64,000 bases of DNA. Source: Sinomicrobium soli (GTDB lineage Bacteria > Bacteroidota > Bacteroidia > Flavobacteriales > Flavobacteriaceae). This document shows, one piece after another, positions 1-11,788 of this stretch. The stretch spans positions 1 through 64,000 of the forward strand of contig NZ_QLNV01000019.1 in assembly GCF_003285545.1 (NCBI RefSeq), in the 5' to 3' direction. Within the stretch, counting starts at the first letter, position 1; the number at the start of each line of letters is the position of its first letter. The translations under genes were made by a program, and so were the position numbers. Below the pieces are notes generated by a model that did no database searches, had not been told where the DNA came from, and was given only the letters and a program-made list of their open reading frames with translations.

Positions 1-51
1 AGAGCTGAAGGTAAAGACATTGCTTTTACAACCCAATACGAAGAAGAGTAA
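1..51 (+). CDS. C-terminal end of an unidentified protein (partial)
   Basis: Frame 1 is open from the window edge to a TAA at 49-51 and encodes 16 residues ending in QYEEE. The stretch is too short to assign a family. It lies 134 bp upstream of the DUF6520 gene on the same strand, so the two could be co-transcribed. That it is coding rests only on the open frame and its position. Confidence 0.45.
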   Translation, partial: RAEGKDIAFTTQYEEE

Positions 52-185
52 CCAGGTGTAATTGCCCGGACGGATACACCGGACTTCTGCGATAACCAAA
101 ATATTTTGTTGCGCAACAAAAGCAGGGAAAGCTGAAAACCTGATGTAACAGAGTAAGCAAGTATAAACCTTAATACTTAGAAATC

Positions 186-518
186 ATGAAAAAATTTAAG
201 TTTATTTTACCTGTTGTGGCCTTTGTAATGGCTATTGGAATGTCTTTTGCATATGTGAAAGTTAGTGAAAATGTTGCCTTAATTGAAGTCATAGAAAGAG
301 GTGGTGCATATTGGCAGGTTGACGTTCAGTGTAACGATATCGTGCCTGATTGTCAAGTTCAGCTTACAGATGACTCCGGTGTTGATTTACCAGGTGAATT
401 ATACCCTGTCTTCATTTATGACACTGCAACCGGTAATACAGTTCCTGCACTAGATTCAAGCGGCATTCCTAAAAAGTTCCGGGAATCTGATCTTGAATTT
501 GTAGCTATAGCTAATTAA
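186..518 (+). CDS. DUF6520 family small exported protein
   Basis: This 110-residue protein starts with a basic N-terminus and a hydrophobic segment (about residues 5-23, ending near FAYV) that looks like a signal peptide or membrane anchor. A Cys pair follows near residues 49 and 56 in a short QCNDIVPDCQ segment. Length, leader and spaced cysteines match the DUF6520 proteins common in flavobacteria, whose function is unknown. The ATG follows a purine-poor leader, normal for this phylum. A hairpin with the look of a terminator follows at 566-595. The gene is AT-rich like locus A beside it. The family call is from recognition of the pattern; no role is inferred. Confidence 0.7.
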   Translation: MKKFKFILPVVAFVMAIGMSFAYVKVSENVALIEVIERGGAYWQVDVQCNDIVPDCQVQLTDDSGVDLPGELYPVFIYDTATGNTVPALDSSGIPKKFRESDLEFVAIAN

Positions 519-655: not shown

Positions 656-3577
656 TTATTTGTTATTCTTTAACACAAACTCATATTTGTTTTCCTTTAC
701 AAAGTATTTTCTTGCTGTTTCCTGCATATTTTCTGGAGTTAAGGAATGGATAAAACGATTTCTTTCCCTTTTATCAAATAGGGGGATATTATACCTGTAA
801 TAATCAAATATTTCGTCATCGGAGAGCTGTTCACTTTTTTCAGTTATATATCTCGGGTAAATATCATTTTTACAGACTATCTTAAACTCTTTCTTACCAA
901 TTGGTTTGTCTATAAGCTCTTGAATAATATTTTCACATTCCTTTCTTAGCCCCTCTAACTCTTCTGCCTCTGTATCAAAATTAATCCTGAGTTCGCAAAC
1001 TTTTAAAGCTGGATTAAAGATTGAATAAACATAAATATCATACAATGCAAATCTGTTCTTAAATCTCAACTGATCAACTCTGGAACTTATAAATTCACTA
1101 ATCATTTTAAGTCTTTCATTGTCTTTCCACCAATCATTCATATCATCAACCTTACATCTATAAACCAGCTCATATTGTGGGCCATACATCTTATAACCAG
1201 GATTTAAATCTTCCAGAAAAAACTCCTTATATACAGGACCAGAGGGAACTAGTCTTTGTATCCGGCCCATCTGTTTGACAATTTTGTTTTTGTTCGGAAG
1301 ATTTCCAAGATATTTCTGCAATAAAGGAAGGATGGCCTTTTTGGAATAAACTCCATTAATTATAAAAGTAAATTCAGCGGCATGACCAAAAAGTTGATTA
1401 TAAATGTCATATGATTTCTTTTTGTCTGTTTTTCCGATTCCATAAAAACGTTTAGTCGAAAATATACTGGGGTAAACCGTACCTCTTTTAATTCTATCAC
1501 CTAAAAAGTCTTTCTGGGCTTCAATAAAGTCACGATAACTTACCGGAACATAAGAATCAAAATAGTTAAAATTAGATTGCTCTATCCAATTCTGTTCAGC
1601 TTCCATTGTTATTTCTCTGGGTTGAGATATGTATAGGTAGATCAACTGCATTATTTCTTCTGCACTTATTTCTCTACCCGTAATTTTTATACCTGATGTA
1701 TTGTTATTGATATAAGTTATTTCTTGTTTTTGACGGCCAACACGAAACAAATTCTGACCTAGTTCTTCATTACTCATATTTCCTATACCTGCGTAATGTA
1801 CCAAACTTGGAGCATTCAAAGCAGAATAATAGCTTGATTCTTTGAAGAGATCCGCACCACCATGCCTATATCCATGTATACTGATATAGCCTTTAGTATT
1901 TGTTTTAGATTCCTCTCCATTTAAAATCAGTTTTATTCCATTTTGAAGGGTGATAATTTCAGATTTAGTTATAGAGTCAAAAGCTTTTCTTTCAATACTA
2001 ACCGGCTTCAATTGTTCAGCTTGCTGCCGTGACATTATAGTTGGAGTCACTTTTTTTTCTTCAAAATTTGCTTTTTTAGCATCAGGCTTATAATCGTCAA
2101 TTGGTTTTGATAGAACATTTTGAATCCACTCCCTCACCTCCTTCTCTGAGTAAGAAAAGGCCTTATGCCCTGACGGTGCAACCATTGTAATATCATCTGG
2201 TATTATACCCATATTATTTTTGACATATCTATTAATGTCTTCTATAGTCAAAGACATAAGTATTTGTTTTAGAAAATCTTCCTTGTTATCTGGAAAAGCC
2301 CTTCCTAAAACAAAATGTTGTTCAATTTGATAGTACCAATACCTTCCCGAAGTTGTGTCCTTACTTTCAAGTTGTTCGATCAGGCTGTTTCTTACCTTTA
2401 TCCATTCCTCTGAAGTAAAACCTTTGTTTTTTATGCTTGACAATAATTGTGTAATCCGCTGAATTCTTTGTTTCTCCTTATTTTTTCCTTCTTTAAAATG
2501 TATTTCATAATATGGCAGTCCTTTATCCAACCAGTTTGATTGTATAAAGCTTGCTGCAATTTCATCATGATTTAACCTATACTTCAAAAGATTCTGCAAA
2601 CTTTCTTGTAATAAGTCGGCTTGAATTTTATCTTTGCCATATCCTTTTTTCAGGTTACTATCTTTTATTCTGTAATTTAAGAATACTTCCAATGGTCTTT
2701 TATCTTCAGGGATTACGTTTCCCTCCCACTTTATTTCTACAATACCAAAATTAGAAGAACTATTCAGATAGGATTCCGTACAAATATTAATAGGTAGCGG
2801 GGAGGAAGGCAGTGGTATATCTGAAAAGGTATTCCTCACTTTCCTTTCAATTATTTCAGTCTTTTTTATATTTCCAATTACAGCTAACCCCATTAAATCA
2901 GGACGATACCATTTCTGGTAAAACTTAGTAACTCCCTCTGAAGATATATTGTCGAAAAAATCAGAAAAATCATTAAGAACCTCATTCAAACATGGAAATA
3001 CAATAGAACGACGTTTATATTCTGCAAAAAAATATGAAGAAGAAGGTTTACGTGTTACTCTTTTAAATTCCTGTTTGAGAATGTTTGCTTCTTTTCGGAC
3101 ATCGGAGGGAGAAATATCTAGATCGCTAATATCCCGAAACCATAACAATAAGGAATCCAACAACTCTTGATTCAGATTATCATCAGATATACTCAATTGA
3201 TATTCAGTTCGATAATAACCAGTCCCTGCCTCGCTTTTTACACCATATGGTTTAAATGCAGGGTGGTATTCAATAAAGCCCCCCGGAAAATTCTTGGTTC
3301 CATTATGAGGTAAATGCTCTATTAAATGTGCTGCAAGAGATTCCCCCTTTAATTGATTAGCCCCTCCGGCCTTTACCCATAGATAGATCGTAATATTGGG
3401 AGCCTCCGGTACAGGTTTTATATAGTAGGTAAAACCATTGGGTAAAATGTCATGTACAACAGTGGAATTTAGCGGAAGGGAATCTCCATGTGATTTGTTA
3501 ATTCTTAATGATATAGCGAATGTATAATTAACAAACCCCAAAAAAAAGAGTGATATTACAATGCGGTAAAATTTCAT
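656..3577 (-). CDS. M16 (insulinase/pitrilysin) family zinc metallopeptidase, exported
   Basis: This 973-residue protein begins with a signal peptide (about residues 1-22). The inverted zinc motif HxxEH is present as HLIEH at residues 84-88, and the third ligand region has Glu163 and Glu170, at the spacing usual for M16 enzymes. A second, non-catalytic M16-like half starts near residue 550. The length fits two-domain periplasmic M16 peptidases, which cut peptides held in a closed chamber. It is the last gene of the sigma-FecR-SusC-SusD locus A, 65 bp below susD, so the locus may import peptides or a peptide-bearing ligand that this enzyme trims. The gene is clearly AT-rich, like susD and the 3' part of susC. 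Family confidence is high; substrate is unknown. Confidence 0.9.
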   Translation of the reverse strand: MKFYRIVISLFFLGFVNYTFAISLRINKSHGDSLPLNSTVVHDILPNGFTYYIKPVPEAPNITIYLWVKAGGANQLKGESLAAHLIEHLPHNGTKNFPGGFIEYHPAFKPYGVKSEAGTGYYRTEYQLSISDDNLNQELLDSLLLWFRDISDLDISPSDVRKEANILKQEFKRVTRKPSSSYFFAEYKRRSIVFPCLNEVLNDFSDFFDNISSEGVTKFYQKWYRPDLMGLAVIGNIKKTEIIERKVRNTFSDIPLPSSPLPINICTESYLNSSSNFGIVEIKWEGNVIPEDKRPLEVFLNYRIKDSNLKKGYGKDKIQADLLQESLQNLLKYRLNHDEIAASFIQSNWLDKGLPYYEIHFKEGKNKEKQRIQRITQLLSSIKNKGFTSEEWIKVRNSLIEQLESKDTTSGRYWYYQIEQHFVLGRAFPDNKEDFLKQILMSLTIEDINRYVKNNMGIIPDDITMVAPSGHKAFSYSEKEVREWIQNVLSKPIDDYKPDAKKANFEEKKVTPTIMSRQQAEQLKPVSIERKAFDSITKSEIITLQNGIKLILNGEESKTNTKGYISIHGYRHGGADLFKESSYYSALNAPSLVHYAGIGNMSNEELGQNLFRVGRQKQEITYINNNTSGIKITGREISAEEIMQLIYLYISQPREITMEAEQNWIEQSNFNYFDSYVPVSYRDFIEAQKDFLGDRIKRGTVYPSIFSTKRFYGIGKTDKKKSYDIYNQLFGHAAEFTFIINGVYSKKAILPLLQKYLGNLPNKNKIVKQMGRIQRLVPSGPVYKEFFLEDLNPGYKMYGPQYELVYRCKVDDMNDWWKDNERLKMISEFISSRVDQLRFKNRFALYDIYVYSIFNPALKVCELRINFDTEAEELEGLRKECENIIQELIDKPIGKKEFKIVCKNDIYPRYITEKSEQLSDDEIFDYYRYNIPLFDKRERNRFIHSLTPENMQETARKYFVKENKYEFVLKNNK

Positions 3578-3642: not shown

Positions 3643-5058
3643 TTAATATCCTTGGTTTTGCCCCAAATTGGGGTTTTTCTGTCGTTCTTCATCCGGAATA
3701 GGATACCATGCATCTATTGCCTGCCAGGTCGGTGAATTAGAAAATTCTTCTTCGATAGCTCCTATCCTTTTTAAGTCAAACCATCTGTGTCCGAACTCTC
3801 CGAAAAACTCCCGTTTACGCTCTAGCATTATACTATCCAATAATTCCTCCTGATTCAATTCTCCGGGATACGCACTAAGTAGATTGATATTAGCCCTACT
3901 TCGAATTACATCAAGATCAGATATGGCTAAATCAATTTTTTTTAAATGAGTACGTGCCTCCGCACGGATAAGATATTGTTCAGCTAATCTGAGAACTACC
4001 GTAGCTTCTTTGTTATTCACAGAAGAAAGGTTTTCCTTATACTTATAAATATAATTGTATTCCTCCCCTCCCTGTTCATACGCTCCTATCCATTTCTCTA
4101 AACGCTGATCATCATGTTCAAAATTCAATATAAAATGATCTGCAAGCAACGCTATTCCCTGAACATGGGTAAATCCGGGAAATGTCAATACTAATATTGC
4201 GAATGCCTTTCCTTCAGCGGTAACAATATTTGTTGCATACCCTCCCATTGGATCGATCTGCCAAATAGCTTCCCGGTTGTGTGCCATAAAAACCTGGTCC
4301 AAATCGTCCAGAATTTCAAAATCAGTTGTTTGTTCAATAAGCATACTACTATATTCTTCAGCCTTGTCCCAAAGCTGCCTATATAGGTATACTCGAGACA
4401 ATAGTGCCAGAACTGCGTGGTGTGTAACATAAAATCTTTCTTCTTCGGGATATGCTGTCTCATTTTTCAGAAGGTTCATGCTCTCTAGCAGATCTGTTTC
4501 GATCTGATCCCAGACGATCTCCTGATTATCTATAGACGCCAATGCATTTATCTTGTAATTTGTAGTAAGTAACAGAGGGACATCTCCATAGATATTTACT
4601 AAATAAAAGTACGTAAATGCCCTAATAAACATGGCTTGTCCCCTCAGGCTATCTTTAAATTTCTCTGATAAATTTTCCGAATTGTTTATTCCTTCCATAA
4701 GACTATTACAGAGGTAAATTATATTATACGCACTACTCCAAATATTCAAGTTTGTGGTAGCATCCGGACTATTTGTAGCGCTTAGCTCATGCTGCCAAAA
4801 TGCATCATAGATCTCATGTGATATTCTCGGACGAATTAAATTCCCTGAAAAACCTGCATATACACTTATTCCTCCTATAAAAAATGAAGGACGTAATTGG
4901 TTGTATATTCCTTTGATTGCTACACGGGCTGTCTCTTCATTAGCAAATATATCAGTACTTACCATTTCGAAATTAGGTGTATCTATTTCTACAAAATCCT
5001 CACAAGAGCATAAAAAAAAACTATATGCTAATACCGGTATATATATATATCTTTTCAT
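3643..5058 (-). CDS. SusD/RagB-like outer-membrane nutrient-binding lipoprotein (locus A)
   Basis: This 471-residue lipoprotein carries the lipobox LCSC with Cys19, followed by acidic residues (ED), typical of surface lipoproteins of the phylum. The body has the SusD pattern: an N-terminal segment about ETARVAIKGIYNQLR and FIRAFTYFYLVNIYGDVPLL, TPR-like helices in the middle (LLSRVYLYRQLWDKAEEYS), and a C-terminal RAEA/DVIRSRA region ending in ERKREFFGEFGHRWFDLKR and NPNLGQNQGY. SusD proteins form the lid over the SusC barrel. The gene starts 10 bp after the susC stop, so the pair is translationally linked. It is AT-rich compared with the sigma and fecR genes of the same locus. The ligand cannot be read from sequence; the downstream M16 peptidase hints at peptides. 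Confidence 0.93.
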   Translation of the reverse strand: MKRYIYIPVLAYSFFLCSCEDFVEIDTPNFEMVSTDIFANEETARVAIKGIYNQLRPSFFIGGISVYAGFSGNLIRPRISHEIYDAFWQHELSATNSPDATTNLNIWSSAYNIIYLCNSLMEGINNSENLSEKFKDSLRGQAMFIRAFTYFYLVNIYGDVPLLLTTNYKINALASIDNQEIVWDQIETDLLESMNLLKNETAYPEEERFYVTHHAVLALLSRVYLYRQLWDKAEEYSSMLIEQTTDFEILDDLDQVFMAHNREAIWQIDPMGGYATNIVTAEGKAFAILVLTFPGFTHVQGIALLADHFILNFEHDDQRLEKWIGAYEQGGEEYNYIYKYKENLSSVNNKEATVVLRLAEQYLIRAEARTHLKKIDLAISDLDVIRSRANINLLSAYPGELNQEELLDSIMLERKREFFGEFGHRWFDLKRIGAIEEEFSNSPTWQAIDAWYPIPDEERQKNPNLGQNQGY

Positions 5059-5068
5059 AATAAATCAG

Positions 5069-8000
5069 TTAAAGTGTTAGTTGCACACCTCCTGTGACCA
5101 TCCGTAAAGGTGGTAATGCTATAAGTGGAGGAGACTCCAGGTTCACTCCCGGATATGACGTTATTGTTATCAGGTTTTGTGCTGAGATAAATATTCTTAA
5201 GGCACTTATTCCAGAATTGTCTAACCAAATCTTGGGTAAATCATAACTTAAAGACAAAGTTTTAAGTCTTATAAATGATGAATCTACCCATCCTAAAACA
5301 TCACTCCTATTTGCTATTAAATAAGTAGAATAAAAGGCTGGTGAATCTTCTATATACATTTCTCCATTCTTCCAAGCCTCATATTCCTGTATAGAGCGGT
5401 TGTTGTACCAACCAGAAACACCGGGAGCACCATCTGTGAATGGTAAACCTTTATGATTTTTTTGCTTAATAAAATCTATTAAGAAATTACATTGAAATCC
5501 TTTATAAGAAATACTATTACTTATCCCTCCATAATATTGTCTTCCCCTCGTTTTCCTTATTATCATATCTTCCTGATCATATCTTCCATCTTGATTGACA
5601 TCTTCAACCTCATAAAAACCGGTTTCCGGATTTGTTCCTATAAATTTGAAACGAGGAGTAGTTTCTAACGGATAACCAACCATATATAAAGAAGCATAAG
5701 AAGACTGTTCTATATTTGGAAAACTAATTAACCTATTTTTAGAAAAGCTGATATTAAATGCAGTATGCCACCTTAAGTTTTTATTTTGGATATTTAAAGT
5801 GGATACTTCCATTTCCCAACCTGTGTTCTGGACAGTTGCAGGTGAATTGGCAGTTACCGACGTAAAACCTGTCATTGCTGGTAAAGGGTAATTGATTAAT
5901 TGATTAGAAGAGCGATTGCGATACCAACTTAAACCAATATTAATATGATCTTTGAAAAAACCCAATTCAATAGCAGCTTCAAGCTTACGATTTTCTTCCC
6001 AAACAAAATCTGGATTAAATAATCTTGTTGGGTATAGTCCTCCAGGGCCATCAGTAGATTGGTATGCATCCAGATATTGATAATCTCCGACATTGTCACT
6101 CCCCGTCGTCCCATAACTACCACGTAGTTTTCCAAAACTCAAAAACGGCAAATAGTTTTTTACAAACGGTTCTTCAGTAAATATCCACGCGCCCCCTATA
6201 GCCCAGAAGTTAGAAAAGCGTCTGCCTGGACCAAAACGGGAAGAGCCATCTCGACGACCTGTAAAATTGATCAAATATTTCTTTTGATAATCATAACCAA
6301 TACGTCCAAAAATAGCATTATATTTATATTCATTTGAACCGACCCCCGTAATCATATAAGATTCTGCAGATCTCAAATCACCTACTAAAGATTCCGAAGC
6401 AAATCCTGTTCCCACGACTCCGAAACGATCACTTTCATTCTTCTGGAATGTAACACCTACCAAAGTGTTAAGAGTTCCCTCTCCCAATGTTGTTCCATAA
6501 GTAATTTGCGGTTCAATGATCCATGATAATCTTTTTTGAAAACCTTTTCTCATTACATGGTCTGCACCTTCTCTTAATGGTGGAGCTAAACGGTCTATGA
6601 AGTTCTTACCTAAAATTTCATTTGTCATTCGGGTATATCCAAAACTACTCTTAACAATAAATCCTTGGAATAACTTATATGAAACCATTAGATTACTTAT
6701 TATATTATGTGTTTCCGTATTGACAGGAGAATGTTTTCCAGCCAGCGGATTATCCATGTTCAACAATAGCCATTCTTCCCAATGCAAACTACCATCTTCA
6801 TTATATAAGGGAGGCGCATTCGGCAGTAATTTATAAGCAGCATTTACTATATCATTTACAGCCATAGATTCATTTAATCCAATACCATAATTGATTTTTA
6901 AATCCAAGCCCAATTTCTTGTTTTCAGAACGTTGACTGATACTAGCCCCTACAGTGAGCCTTTTATTACGCATTTCTTCAGGAAAGACATTTCCTTGTGA
7001 TTGCAGAGATCCATTTATACGAAAAGAGGTAGTAGAGTTTCCTCCGTAAGCAGAAAGATTAACATTATTAATAGAGGCTGTTCCTCCTAATAATTCTTCC
7101 TGCCAATCTGTGTAACGGTTGGTATTCCATAATATTATATCAGGAGCATTTGTTCCATCAGGTATCTTTTCAGCGTTTGTCATAGCTGCTTCTCTTATTT
7201 CCACATATTGCTCTGTATTCAACAATTTCATCTTCCTTTCTACCTGTCCAATCCCAGTATACCACCTGGCTTCAATCTGTGTTTTTTTATTCCATCCTAT
7301 TCCTCTTCGGGTAGTAATCAAAATCACTCCGTTCGCTCCCCTTGAACCATAGATGGCAGTAGCATCTGCATCTTTCAAAACCTCTACACTCTCTATATCT
7401 GATATATTTAATGTGCTTAGGGGGTCCAAATTATTCATTAGTAAATTACCTTGACGAACCCCTATATCCGTTTCAATAGGTTTTGAATTTACAGGAACAC
7501 CGTCGATAATATACAAGGGATAATTACCATCATCCCTTAAGCTGTTCCGCCCTCTTATTCTTATAATAGGGGCACTTCCCGGCATACCGTCCTGCTGGGA
7601 GATCTCTACTCCGGCCATTCGCCCATATAGAGTTTCCAACGGACTCACAATTGGTTGTAACTCTATGTCCTCCCCACTAACCCTCGCTATACTCCCCGTC
7701 CTTTCCCTATCCTTAACCTTATAATACCCCGCATTCACCACCACCTCATCCAGCGTATTCACATCCTCCTCCATCACCACGTCCAGGGTATTGCTTTGTT
7801 CCACCATATATTCCCGGGTTTTAAACCCCACAAACGAAAACACCAGGATCTCCCCAACTGCGGCCCGGATGCTCCACGCCCCGTTTTCGTCCGACATGGT
7901 GCCGTGGCCCCGGTCTTTTACGATGATATTTACCCCGGGCAGGGGCTGGCCTTCGGTGGTGGTTACCGTACCGCTGACCAATTGCTGGGGTGGTAGTTCA

Positions 8001-8416
8001 TCGGCCTTTGCTGCCGGGACGATATGGGCCTTGCCCTTAACCGTTTCGGGTTTTGCGGAGAGTACGATCTGCCGGTCCAGCAGCCTGAAGGTGATGGGGG
8101 TATTTTCGAATAAGGTGGCCAGGATGGTTTCCAGTGACTGTTTACGGGCCCGGATGGTCACCTTGCGCTGCAGGTCGAGGTCTTTTTCGGAATAGAGGAA
8201 ACGGAAGTCGGTCCGTGACTCTATCGCTTCCATCACGGCCAGTACCGTAACGGATTCCATGTTCAGGGTAAGCTTTGCGTTCTGGCGGATATGGTCATGG
8301 GCCTGTACCCGGAATATGGCCATAAGGAACAGCAATACAAAACCGGTAAGCCGTATTGCCGGTCCCCGTAATTCCACAGGGGCGGGTATTCGAAGGATTG
8401 AGATACTTTTCATCAT
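5069..8416 (-). CDS. SusC/RagA-like TonB-dependent transporter with STN signalling domain (locus A)
   Basis: This 1115-residue protein has a signal segment (about 20-40), an STN domain (about 50-125, LTLNMESVTVLAVMEAIES onward), a carboxypeptidase-regulatory-like beta domain (about 145-215, SGTVTTTEGQPLPGVNI), the DEVVVNAGYY segment near 225, a plug (about 240-370, with LYIIDGVPVNS and ATAIYGSRGANGVILITT) and a C-terminal barrel. STN domains contact the anti-sigma factor, matching the fecR and sigma genes just upstream. The gene is a compositional mosaic: roughly 7,760-8,416 (STN and beta domain) is GC-rich like fecR, whereas plug and barrel are AT-rich like susD and the M16 gene. That suggests the transport part was replaced while the signalling part stayed. 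Confidence 0.94.
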   Translation of the reverse strand: MMKSISILRIPAPVELRGPAIRLTGFVLLFLMAIFRVQAHDHIRQNAKLTLNMESVTVLAVMEAIESRTDFRFLYSEKDLDLQRKVTIRARKQSLETILATLFENTPITFRLLDRQIVLSAKPETVKGKAHIVPAAKADELPPQQLVSGTVTTTEGQPLPGVNIIVKDRGHGTMSDENGAWSIRAAVGEILVFSFVGFKTREYMVEQSNTLDVVMEEDVNTLDEVVVNAGYYKVKDRERTGSIARVSGEDIELQPIVSPLETLYGRMAGVEISQQDGMPGSAPIIRIRGRNSLRDDGNYPLYIIDGVPVNSKPIETDIGVRQGNLLMNNLDPLSTLNISDIESVEVLKDADATAIYGSRGANGVILITTRRGIGWNKKTQIEARWYTGIGQVERKMKLLNTEQYVEIREAAMTNAEKIPDGTNAPDIILWNTNRYTDWQEELLGGTASINNVNLSAYGGNSTTSFRINGSLQSQGNVFPEEMRNKRLTVGASISQRSENKKLGLDLKINYGIGLNESMAVNDIVNAAYKLLPNAPPLYNEDGSLHWEEWLLLNMDNPLAGKHSPVNTETHNIISNLMVSYKLFQGFIVKSSFGYTRMTNEILGKNFIDRLAPPLREGADHVMRKGFQKRLSWIIEPQITYGTTLGEGTLNTLVGVTFQKNESDRFGVVGTGFASESLVGDLRSAESYMITGVGSNEYKYNAIFGRIGYDYQKKYLINFTGRRDGSSRFGPGRRFSNFWAIGGAWIFTEEPFVKNYLPFLSFGKLRGSYGTTGSDNVGDYQYLDAYQSTDGPGGLYPTRLFNPDFVWEENRKLEAAIELGFFKDHINIGLSWYRNRSSNQLINYPLPAMTGFTSVTANSPATVQNTGWEMEVSTLNIQNKNLRWHTAFNISFSKNRLISFPNIEQSSYASLYMVGYPLETTPRFKFIGTNPETGFYEVEDVNQDGRYDQEDMIIRKTRGRQYYGGISNSISYKGFQCNFLIDFIKQKNHKGLPFTDGAPGVSGWYNNRSIQEYEAWKNGEMYIEDSPAFYSTYLIANRSDVLGWVDSSFIRLKTLSLSYDLPKIWLDNSGISALRIFISAQNLITITSYPGVNLESPPLIALPPLRMVTGGVQLTL

Positions 8417-8565
8417 AAATAAATGGTATTTCGGTTGATTAATATGAGTTAGCCGGTTATGGGCGAAAAGTTGTAAAACCAGGGTAAATACATTTTTTTA
8501 AATATTGAAAAACAGCATATTAAAATCATATCTAAAACTTTTTTTACCGTATTTCCGTCATTTTC

Positions 8566-8595
8566 TTTATTTTTACGGTTAACCGTAAAAATAAA
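8566..8595. promoter_or_regulatory. 30-bp perfect palindrome upstream of susC (locus A)
   Basis: The half-site TTTATTTTTACGGTT (8566-8580) is followed without spacer by its exact complement AACCGTAAAAATAAA. It lies between fecR and susC, about 150 bp upstream of the susC start, and an extra ACCGT half-core occurs nearby at 8546-8550. A spacer-free symmetric site with core ACGGTTAACCGT reads as an operator for a dimeric regulator. It could alternatively form a cruciform, or an AT-rich hairpin ending the fecR transcript. Confidence 0.55.
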
Positions 8596-8664
8596 AATGT
8601 ATATACCCTGTCATCAAGTGTAAATGTCTACTTCATGTACCAGTGTTTTTTTGTTCATATTATG

Positions 8665-9876
8665 TCAGGGGGCAGTAATCACGATGGTATTACCATTGCG
8701 GGTATACCGGAACGGGGTGTGTAACCGGTAGGCATTCAGTATTTGTTCGAGGGTTTCTCCACGGAAGGTTGCGGTAAAGGGGATATGGTCGAGTTCGGGA
8801 TAGCGGCTTTCTATGGCAACGTTAAAATGCCGTTCGAGTTTTCGCATGACCAGGCCGAAGGGATCATTCTGAAAATAGAGTTCCCCGCGGGTCCAGGCGG
8901 TATACTTCTCGACATTCACCGTCTCTACTTCTATATGCCCCTGGTCGTACAGGGCACGCTGGCCGGGCGCTATGGTTACCATGCCGTTCCCGGCATCCTC
9001 CCCGGAATACACTCCTACGCTGCCTTCCTCCAGTACCGTATAGGCCTGTTGTTCGTTTTTATAGGAGGTAACATTAAACCGGGTGCCCAGCACCCGGGTC
9101 TCCATCTCCTGTGTGATCACGGTAAAAGGGCGGGAGGTATCCCTGCTCACCTCAAAGAACGCCTCGCCGTCGAGATAGACATTACGGGGCGTGCCCCGGC
9201 TGAAAGCCACCGGGTAGTGCAAGGAGGAACCCGCGTTGAGAAACACCCGGGAACCGTCAGACAGGGTAATCCCGAACCTTTTTCCATAGGGTACCTTAAG
9301 CAGGTTATAATCCGGCTTGCCTTCCGGCTCTTCCCCGCGGTCATACACCAGCATCTGTTGCTGCTGGCTTCCTACCCGCTGCCCTTTTTCCGTGGTGATC
9401 TCGGCAGTACGGCTCCCGTCGATCACCTGTTCACTGCCATCCTGCAATTGCAGGGTGACCTGCGGGACGCCGCTATCGGATGGTTCGCCGCCGAACCATC
9501 CCATATACCACGCCCCGAGTACCATAAACAGGGCTATTGCTGAAAAACCGGCAGCCATCCCGATACGGGAAAAAGACAGATGACGTACTCCGGGCTTATC
9601 ACTCCCCGATGTCTTTCCCGCCCCGGCATGGTGACGCAGTTTATGCAACATTCCGGTCCTGTGTTCCTTCGACAGCCTGCCGGGCTCCCCACCGAGATAC
9701 CACACACATTCCATGGCTGCCGTAACAGTATCCTCCATATGGGGATACTCGCGCTGTAATTTTTCCCAAAAAATATCGGAGTCCCTGTCCGGCCTGCAAC
9801 ACCACTGTATAAAGTAGTCGTCCCGAAGCAATTGCTCCACATCGTATGCCTTATACCTTCTCAAACGGTTTTTCAT
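8665..9876 (-). CDS. FecR-family anti-sigma factor (locus A)
   Basis: This 403-residue membrane protein has a cytosolic N-terminal part, one transmembrane helix (about 105-128, GMAAGFSAIALFMVLGAWYM), a periplasmic FecR domain (about 190-290, with VPYGKRFGITLSDGSRVFLNAGSSL split over two strands) and a C-terminal DUF4974/STN-like domain (about 325-398, ending in FRYTRNGNTIVITAP). FecR proteins hold an ECF sigma factor and release or activate it when the STN domain of the partner transporter is loaded. It lies between the sigma gene (157-bp gap) and the STN-bearing susC (248-bp gap), the standard order. The gene is GC-rich, unlike the genes further down the locus. Confidence 0.93.
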   Translation of the reverse strand: MKNRLRRYKAYDVEQLLRDDYFIQWCCRPDRDSDIFWEKLQREYPHMEDTVTAAMECVWYLGGEPGRLSKEHRTGMLHKLRHHAGAGKTSGSDKPGVRHLSFSRIGMAAGFSAIALFMVLGAWYMGWFGGEPSDSGVPQVTLQLQDGSEQVIDGSRTAEITTEKGQRVGSQQQQMLVYDRGEEPEGKPDYNLLKVPYGKRFGITLSDGSRVFLNAGSSLHYPVAFSRGTPRNVYLDGEAFFEVSRDTSRPFTVITQEMETRVLGTRFNVTSYKNEQQAYTVLEEGSVGVYSGEDAGNGMVTIAPGQRALYDQGHIEVETVNVEKYTAWTRGELYFQNDPFGLVMRKLERHFNVAIESRYPELDHIPFTATFRGETLEQILNAYRLHTPFRYTRNGNTIVITAP

Positions 9877-10014
9877 ATCAATGACTTTGTTTTGGGGGAG
9901 TCGGTTTAATAAGCCTCTGTTATATAAGTGACACCGCGGGAACTTTATTCCAGGAAAAAAATGAAGTTTTTTTTGAAAATATTTTTAAAACACTGGGAAA
10001 CAAATTATTGAGAG

Positions 10015-10035
10015 TCACAGGTTACAGGTTGCAAT
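10015..10035 (+). repeat. GGTTACA-type heptamer tract
   Basis: CACAGGT, TACAGGT and TGCAATC follow one another with a 7-bp period just past the sigma gene stop. The same period-7 motif recurs at other gene borders (13325, 19397, 22325, 46684). Confidence 0.5.
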
Positions 10036-10697
10036 CAACAAACTCTCATTCTCCCCAGGCACCTGCGGAAGAGGGTAAACATAAACAGTTCCTTTTTCAG
10101 TACCTTAAGCAGGTCGATGGCGCGGTTCAGGTGATAATAGACGGTTTTCTTTTTGACGCCGGTAATGGTGACGATCTCCCTGACAGGCAGTCCTTCGTAG
10201 AAACGGAGGTGGATGATCTGCCGCTGTGCAGGGCTCAGCCGGGCGAGGGCAGTTCTTATATGGCTGCGCAGCTGGTCGTCCTGCTGCTCATCCTCAAAGC
10301 GGCTGTCGTGTGTGACCAGTTCGTCACTCTCCAGCTGCTGCAGGTCTTCGTCCACCATATAGAGCAGTTTCCGCTCCCTGACCGCGGCGCGAAGCAATTT
10401 GAAGCGCAGCGCACTGTAAAAATAAGACCGGATATTGCGTACCTGTCCCAGGTTTTTACGCCTGTCCCAGCTTTCGCGGAAGAGTTCCTGGATAATATCA
10501 CGGACAAATTCGGGGTCCCTGACCAGGGTGATACCGTAACTGAAAAGTCCGTCTATATGCTCCACATAAATATCGCGGAAAGCATCTGTATTGCCCCGCT
10601 GGAATTCTTCCCAGAGCCTTATATCGCGATGTTCTGCCGGGGCCCCGCCGTTGTCCAGATCACTGAAGGTACGGTTGTCCTTTTTTTTATCCGTCAT
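10035..10697 (-). CDS. ECF RNA polymerase sigma factor (locus A)
   Basis: The protein has sigma region 2 (FRDIYVEHIDGLFSYGITL, then DIIQELFRESW) and region 4 (LARLSPAQRQIIHLRFYEG, then a helix-turn-helix ending in KKTVYYHLNRAIDLLK). Region 1 and most of region 3 are absent, as expected for ECF factors. I use the internal ATG giving MTDKKKDN (220 residues); an in-frame ATG ten codons upstream (10727) is equally possible. It heads locus A and should direct transcription of the susC-susD-M16 genes when FecR signals. A heptamer tract (10015-10035) touches its 3' end. Confidence 0.92.
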   Translation of the reverse strand: MTDKKKDNRTFSDLDNGGAPAEHRDIRLWEEFQRGNTDAFRDIYVEHIDGLFSYGITLVRDPEFVRDIIQELFRESWDRRKNLGQVRNIRSYFYSALRFKLLRAAVRERKLLYMVDEDLQQLESDELVTHDSRFEDEQQDDQLRSHIRTALARLSPAQRQIIHLRFYEGLPVREIVTITGVKKKTVYYHLNRAIDLLKVLKKELFMFTLFRRCLGRMRVC

Positions 10698-10727
10698 AGT
10701 GCCAAATAAATTAGATGCGGAACACAT

Positions 10728-11326
10728 TGTCCCGCGTATAAAACCTCAGCCGGTAAGGTCATGAACAGAAAAGATATAGGGGACATTGACGGATGCGACA
10801 TCGGTGAAGGGTGTTTGCGCAAACCTGGTTGTTCCGGACAAAAAAGACGAACACGCCTGGATTCAAATTTAGCAATTTCGATGAACAAAATACAAAAAAA
10901 TATTTGAACGGCGGATGTTTTGAAATCCGCTTTTCCCCTTCTTTTCCCGAATGATCGTTACAGTATTCCGGTCGGATTACATGCCCCTGTATATCAGCAC
11001 AATAAAAACACACGCCCCAAAAAGGGTGGGCGCGGTACTCACCCATCGATCTGAGGTACTGGCATACCCACGCACGAATAAGTGAGCCCACGCCCGGGTC
11101 GTGAGCTGTCTTCACTTATGTCCCGTGCGTATGAAAAGTGCCAGTTTTCAGATCGAGACCTCAAGCGAATAGCTTCCAATATTTTTTGCTTTCAGAAGTA
11201 TCGCAAATATAGCAATATGTCGTATGCTACAACAACTGCCAGACAAATATATAAAACAAACTTGTGAACAACAAAAATTAATGTTAAACTATTTACCGTT
11301 GTCCGTTTTATCTTTCTATTTGGTAT
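10728..11326. other. 600-bp intergenic region with a long imperfect inverted repeat
   Basis: No convincing gene is present. The only longer open frame (10759-11115, minus) has no recognisable domain and odd composition, so I do not call it. The notable content is the inverted repeat at 11046-11156. The last ~150 bp before the XRE gene are AT-rich and probably hold its promoter. Confidence 0.6.
11046..11156. repeat. ~110-bp imperfect inverted repeat
   Basis: The left arm (about 11046-11085) begins TCGATCTGA, then ACTGGCA, CACGCACG and ATAAGTGA. The right arm (about 11112-11156) carries their complements in reverse order: TCACTTAT, CGTGCGT, TGCCAGT and TCAGATCGA. Arms of 40-45 bp match in blocks with small bulges, around a central ~26-bp GC-rich loop containing CCCGGG. 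It could be a small mobile element remnant, a structured RNA, or a regulator site. No transposase is nearby. Confidence 0.6.
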
Positions 11327-11788
11327 ATGTCGCTATATGTTAACAGGAAAGTATTAAAGCTTATCGGGCAGAGGATAGAGGAGCAAAGAGAGAAGAAAAA
11401 GCTCGATGTTTCAGACGTAGCCTACATGACCGGTTTTTCGGATAATACCGTCCGGAATGTCGAAGCCGGCAAGGATACTACGGTTTCTTACCTGGTGGAA
11501 GTATGTATAGCGGTAGGGCTGCACCCGAAAGATCTCTTTGATATGGAGCTGGAGATGAAACCGAGGTTCGAGCTCTCTCCCGAACGGAAAAACAAGAAGA
11601 AACTGACCCTGCGCATCCGGGAATATATCCGGGAAGGATATTTCGACACTTCCCGTTCTGCAAAGGATGTGGTCCTGAAGCTTGAGGAAGACGGTATACG
11701 TACAAGCTCGGCCGTGCTTTCCAATATCCTGCCCAGATGGCTGAAGACCACAAAAAAGGGCCGTCGGAATTCGTACAGGAGTAAATAG
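11327..11788 (+). CDS. XRE-family helix-turn-helix transcriptional regulator
   Basis: This 153-residue protein has an N-terminal XRE/Cro-like domain (about residues 8-68): IGQRIEEQREKKKLDVSDVAYMTG, then the recognition helix DNTVRNVEAGK, then YLVEVCIAVGLHPKDLF. A basic C-terminal half (about 88-150) has its own helical, possibly winged DNA-binding look (VVLKLEEDGIRTSSAVLSNIL) and ends in a Lys/Arg-rich tail. It stands alone between the inverted repeat and a cluster of MITE-like repeats. Targets are unknown; the AT-rich upstream DNA may include an autoregulatory site. Confidence 0.8.
   Translation: MSLYVNRKVLKLIGQRIEEQREKKKLDVSDVAYMTGFSDNTVRNVEAGKDTTVSYLVEVCIAVGLHPKDLFDMELEMKPRFELSPERKNKKKLTLRIREYIREGYFDTSRSAKDVVLKLEEDGIRTSSAVLSNILPRWLKTTKKGRRNSYRSK

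Follow-up and report, generated by a model that had tools for sequence, protein, structure and literature searches.

Gene content of locus A

The DNA analysed here (the window) consists of positions 1–64,000 of one contig of the 4.6 Mb draft genome of Sinomicrobium soli. Locus A lies at the contig end and comprises genes for an ECF sigma factor, a FecR-type regulator, a SusC protein, its SusD partner, an M16 peptidase and a small DUF6520 protein (Table 1). The SusC protein scores 676 bits with TIGR04056 (cut-off 368) and has both a Plug domain (PF07715) and a TonB box. The susD gene lies directly downstream of susC, and the N-terminal STN domain together with the upstream FecR and ECF sigma genes gives the locus a Fec-type transducer layout. 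By sequence, the best solved relatives of the locus A protein are the SusC homolog 8aa4 and RagA (6sli). The S. soli genome contains 119 plug-domain matches, and locus A belongs to a SusC subfamily that is distinguished by NAGYY where the usual SusC protein has GYGTQ after the TonB box.

Table 1. Features of locus A (window coordinates)
Feature	Position	Strand	Evidence and remarks
ECF sigma factor, signalling module	10035–10727	−	Pfam Sigma70_r4_2; NCBIfam TIGR02937 above cut-off; GC3 0.63
FecR-type anti-sigma regulator, signalling module	8665–9876	−	Pfam FecR, FecR_C; GC3 0.63
AT-rich FecR–susC gap	8417–8664	−	27% GC; 18-bp inverted repeat pair
susC, 1115 aa, mosaic	5069–8416	−	TIGR04056; change-point; tree conflict
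SusC residues 1–140, signal region and STN, signalling half	7997–8416	−	r with FecR 0.69–0.81 (50-residue windows)
STN domain, SusC residues 72–122	8051–8203	−	Pfam
Beta domain (CarbopepD_reg_2, 'NTE'), SusC residues 147–227	7736–7978	−	Pfam; putative exchange zone tied to neither module
NAGYY, SusC residues 228–232, adjoining the DEVVV TonB box	7721–7735	−	Invariant in 12/12 aligned subfamily members
GC3 change-point interval, in the plug at QDGMPGSAPIIRIRGRNSL	7531–7588	−	Change-point analysis
SusC plug (237–364) and barrel, transport half	5069–7708	−	GC3 0.26 past codon 279; r with SusD 0.83
susD partner	3643–5058	−	Pfam SusD_RagB, SusD-like_3; GC3 0.31
M16 (pitrilysin-type) peptidase, transport cassette	656–3577	−	Pfam Peptidase_M16, M16_C; GC3 0.28
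DUF6520 small protein, signal-like N terminus, convergent with M16	186–518	+	Pfam PF20130; GC3 0.26
IS66-family element end, at the contig end	1–77	not assigned	Sequence shared with other contig ends

SusC/RagA TonB-dependent transducers under ECF sigma/FecR control have been described in Bacteroidota, and their STN and NTE domains have been discussed (PMC7782687). Locus A resembles these systems in having sigma, FecR, STN, NTE, TonB box, plug, barrel and SusD. The paper states that the NTE precedes STN in all cases, whereas in the locus A protein this order is reversed, with STN (residues 72–122) before the NTE (residues 147–227; together window 7736–8203). Its discussion of these domains does not deal with the SusC halves being inherited separately.

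A DUF6520 gene is found on the opposite strand near approximately 10 of 26 loci and recurs toward the end of such cassettes; its product might be secreted and serve the M16/SusCD cassette as partner or substrate. Some cassettes (L118:18–2071 and L124:10761–14652) extend with MauE, a thioredoxin-like protein and DUF6520, and these also encode a protein of 350–372 residues that has no Pfam match. In the window, an XRE-type helix-turn-helix gene (11327–11788) is situated between locus A and prfB, and no counterpart of it was found beside prfB in five congeners.

The gap between the FecR gene and susC contains a pair of 18-bp inverted repeats (8480–8497 and 8593–8610) with one mismatch, arranged around 95 bp, and the palindrome TTTTTACGGTTAACCGTAAAAA lies inside this pair. 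Inverted repeats reached at most 12 bp in shuffles of the gap and at most 12 bp in the other gaps of the family that were tested. An invertible promoter and a regulatory site are both possible roles for the 8480–8610 repeat. The gap was also considered as a multi-copy MITE, and this was rejected, as no full-length second copy is present in six genomes.

On its far side, the AT-rich block stops at an IS66 end, which coincides with the end of the contig, and locus A thus adjoins an unassembled repeat. Positions 1–77 are 100% identical to the ends of contigs C40, C18 and C8 (the sequence is common to four contig ends) and show an 88% match next to a complete IS66 gene set in another genome (G001). 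No conjugation or mobilisation genes were seen on the assembled side of locus A, the far side being unassembled.

Base composition along susC

The initial annotation placed a compositional break inside susC, and our analysis confirms that this break is real. GC content along the window rises from 0.35–0.38 (6500–7500) to 0.52–0.56 (7500–8250), and the GC3 of susC is 0.65 before codon 279 and 0.26 after it, within one reading frame. The single GC3 change-point at codon 279 has a support interval of codons 276–295 and a delta lnL of 64.6, compared with a maximum of 9.9 in 500 permutations. With a head-minus-barrel difference in GC3 of +0.39, the locus A gene has the largest step among the 61 SusC genes of the genome and is a clear outlier from the remaining 60 (mean −0.03, SD 0.074, maximum +0.21). 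The next three biggest steps belong to SusC genes of the same subfamily.

Several STN-headed members of the subfamily in congeners have a weaker step in the same direction (+0.1 to +0.2); in most members that lack STN, and in most from other genera, the step is small or absent. Part of the gradient is therefore common to the subfamily, and composition alone could not prove a swap at locus A. The first plug segment (residues ∼ 228–279) has raised GC3 in many relatives as well as in locus A, which would explain why the change-point lies inside the plug.

These values also refine the extent of the two compositional blocks. The break had been assigned to the DEVVVNAGYY linker; the GC step is in fact situated about 50 codons downstream, but the onset of the transport module, as judged from phylogeny (see below), does coincide with the linker and lies within 7620–7800. 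The stretch 7,760–10,730 had been described as GC-rich throughout, which holds for the sigma factor, FecR and SusC head but not for the FecR–susC gap. Similarly, plug, barrel, susD, M16 and DUF6520 genes are AT-rich as proposed (GC3 0.26–0.31), with the exception of the first plug segment.

Histories of the SusC halves

We correlated pairwise protein distances over a main set of 21 loci that have STN, FecR and SusD. The loci were chosen by SusC similarity, the assemblies are drafts, and trees were calculated with FastTree and fast IQ-TREE. FecR distances correlate with those of STN (r = 0.79) and barrel distances with those of SusD (r = 0.83; p = 0.0005 for both). Between the two groups, the values are 0.01 (FecR–barrel), 0.03 (FecR–SusD) and 0.18 (STN–barrel). 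The M16 peptidase follows the barrel (0.87) and not FecR (−0.05; n = 12 loci), and the sigma factor follows FecR (0.69) and STN (0.66) and not the barrel (−0.01; n = 12). The distance correlations thus bear out the expectation that SusD and M16 move together with the transport half, and FecR and sigma with the signalling half.

Head and barrel do not share one phylogeny. AU tests reject the tree of the other module with a delta lnL of 520–1790, and trees from inside one module differ by 33–139, FecR and STN being not identical and barrel and SusD likewise. Linkage within the modules is thus strong, not perfect. Decoupling is weaker when the nine class II loci are taken alone (FecR–barrel 0.50). 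When head types are mapped on the barrel tree (72 genes), a minimum of 17 changes is required, 13 of them inside the genus.

In 50-residue windows along SusC, the correlation with FecR is 0.69–0.81 up to residues 91–140 and close to zero from residues 121–170 onwards. The correlation with SusD reaches 0.47 at residues 211–260 and then remains mostly at 0.5–0.67, with a few weaker windows. The beta domain (147–227), which had been grouped with STN in one module, follows neither module (r with FecR ∼ 0, with SusD 0.04–0.25). Since the first plug segment groups phylogenetically with the barrel, the transport module begins at the NAGYY linker. We therefore place the seam between the STN/beta-domain linker and the TonB box (window ∼ 8010 to 7720).

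Two pairs of relatives reveal such junctions in DNA. Loci L118 (genome G003) and L227 (G001), which belong to two congeners, are ∼ 94% identical through the mobilisation genes, sigma region, FecR and STN (one alignment spans 5.4 kb, and the identity reaches 7.9 kb upstream from the STN region), and identity falls to 44–60% inside susC past STN, at about codon 100–120. The two loci differ in beta domain, barrel, SusD and M16. Near prfB, the background identity of the two genomes is only 73–83%, indicating that the head segment moved recently. The converse case is provided by the S. soli paralogs L056 and L051, in which DNA homology starts at codon 221, close to NAGYY, and extends over 4.4 kb through susD, although the head classes differ. 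One head is thus found before different cassettes, and similar cassettes are found behind different heads. Where inheritance is intact and vertical, it is recognised as such: the conserved pair L075/L172 is evenly diverged (∼ 20%) in all parts.

Mobilisation genes (a coupling protein and DUF5712) are linked to both L118 and L227. On G001:C32 and G003:C222 (L310, L309), the coupling protein gene (PF02534) and DUF5712 lie directly upstream of the sigma/FecR/SusC locus, which suggests that the SusC loci of these two contigs ride on conjugative or mobilisable elements. In the S. soli genome, a TraM-bearing region is located ∼ 20 kb from L056.

The proposal of a cassette swap behind a signalling module is thus supported by the different histories of the halves and by L118/L227, but the exchange is recurrent and not a single event. 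Alternative cassettes exist in congeners. The signalling module had further been regarded as native and kept. This is not shown at locus A, as the whole locus, including sigma and FecR, is absent at prfB in five congeners; comparison with a syntenic locus in close relatives therefore yields no counterpart, and neither half is shown as resident.

No donor or pre-swap allele of the locus A susC gene was found. The nearest barrel is that of L105 (60% identical), followed by that of L106, and since both have class I heads, as does locus A, the swap may be old or may concern only finer head types. The next barrel in closeness, L110 from another genus, is without STN and has a barrel GC3 of 0.26. 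A recent gene-conversion donor of the locus A head within its own genome was considered and rejected, as only 72% matches over 228 bp are present.

The decoupling is also seen in other sets of loci. For 27 other SusC loci of S. soli, r is 0.49 for FecR–STN, 0.70 for barrel–SusD and −0.10 for FecR–barrel, with the seam likewise placed. The corresponding values are 0.44, 0.71 and 0.10 for Chitinophaga niastensis (17 loci) and 0.70, 0.82 and 0.03 for Mucilaginibacter dorajii (16 loci). Histories of head and cassette are therefore uncorrelated in the genus and in two distant genera, albeit in a small sample, and by extension the decoupling may hold across the phylum.

Origin of the mosaic and its bearing on SusC regulation

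We conclude that the SusC protein of locus A is probably a recombinant of two evolutionary modules joined in one reading frame, with cassettes exchanged by recombination. The first module (sigma–FecR–STN) would form a trans-envelope signalling relay. The second (plug/barrel–SusD–M16 peptidase, in some cases with DUF6520), which is AT-rich at locus A, would represent a substrate-specific uptake cassette. The modules would be joined by homologous recombination among the many paralogous susC genes, some of them presumably delivered by conjugative elements, and the crossovers would fall in conserved stretches near the TonB box and plug. An AT-rich flavobacterial lineage is a plausible source of the locus A cassette, which might have arrived directly or via a relative. 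The SusCD pair would serve import, with peptides as a possible substrate to judge from the M16 peptidase. By analogy with TonB-dependent transducers (PMC7782687), STN would signal occupancy to FecR, and sigma would then transcribe the operon. A cassette swap would in this way place a new substrate under an existing switch.

Several other origins have to be weighed against recombination of modules. The whole locus, from sigma to DUF6520, might have been acquired as a unit with an inherited GC gradient (AT-rich barrels and GC-richer heads caused by selection or codon use) and no swap since. We regard this as unlikely but of some weight: gradients of like sign, if weaker, occur in other STN-bearing members of the genus, five congeners lack the whole locus beside prfB, and the nearest barrels (L105, L106) also have class I heads. 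Against it, head and cassette trees conflict very strongly across the family, the barrel tree requires 13 head changes within the genus, no other step in the genome is much more than half of the +0.39 found at locus A, and the step is slight or lacking in the majority of members without STN and of those from other genera. Acquisition as a unit can account for the latest event at the locus A site, not for the origin of the mosaic. It is extremely improbable that saturation, or noise in the alignment of diverged sequences, has created the decoupling artificially. Protein distances are indeed large (medians ∼ 0.7 in controls), but the same data recover the FecR–STN, barrel–SusD and M16–barrel correlations, the seam is sharp in sliding windows, and the AU tests are extreme; the L118/L227 junction, which is visible in the DNA, largely refutes this reading. 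Insertion of the AT-rich block by the adjoining IS66 element as a composite transposon would agree with the IS66 end at window 1–77, which adjoins the block. The other edge of the block, however, lies inside the intact susC frame with no IS end there, making such an insertion highly improbable.

In B. fragilis, susC/D pairs of region EE (a susC/ragA shufflon) are inverted through repeats that overlap the start codon, so that entire susC genes are exchanged behind a fixed promoter; chromosomal (conjugal) transfer can also replace SusC/D variants in this region (PMC5729914). Common to both cases is the exchange of SusC/D variants behind a common expression control. At locus A, in contrast, the seam falls within the susC reading frame, past STN, such repeats were not found, and the change is evolutionary. 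A programmed site-specific shufflon, in which DNA inversion would exchange SusC halves inside one strain, gains something from this precedent and from several subfamily loci that are 10–25 kb apart, one pair of them tail to tail (G003 C222). Nevertheless, we consider it very unlikely. No long inverted repeats were found flanking the susC seam, and there is no excess conservation of a DNA crossover site at the NAGYY codons (same-codon fraction 0.47; mean 0.41, SD 0.06). Junction positions vary between locus pairs, from approximately codon 100–120 (L118/L227) to codon 221 (L056/L051). Together, these observations favour ordinary homologous recombination over a programmed shufflon. In addition, no recombinase or invertase was seen among the ORFs read on the assembled side of locus A, the other side being the contig end.

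In Proteobacteria, domain-swapped TonB-dependent transducers such as the PupA/PupB chimeras are laboratory constructs. Locus A resembles them in that the N-terminal signalling domain is separable from the transporter, and differs from them in that the recombination is natural and recurrent and each module comes with its partner genes. A literature search for exchange of SusC heads and cassettes, with preprints and most subscription journals outside its coverage, found no report.

As a wider and more tentative proposal, to which we give slightly less than an even chance, SusC transducers throughout Bacteroidota may be freely recombining fusions in which any sigma/FecR/STN head can be combined with any plug–barrel/SusD cassette. 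The NTE would then serve as both structural adaptor and exchange zone, with conjugative elements supplying cassettes, and uptake would be re-wired to new switches by intragenic recombination.

Bacteroidota take up nutrients mainly through SusC/D systems, and the sensed and imported substrates of a SusC protein are often assumed to be the same. If the histories of sensor and importer are uncorrelated, predicting the substrate of the regulator from the SusC barrel, or the reverse, would be unreliable from one locus to another, and a phylogeny built from whole SusC proteins would blend two histories. The question of whether heads and cassettes can be exchanged at the TonB-box seam with signalling retained thus becomes directly testable, and the natural junctions of L118/L227 and L056/L051 provide ready-made design points for laboratory transporters.
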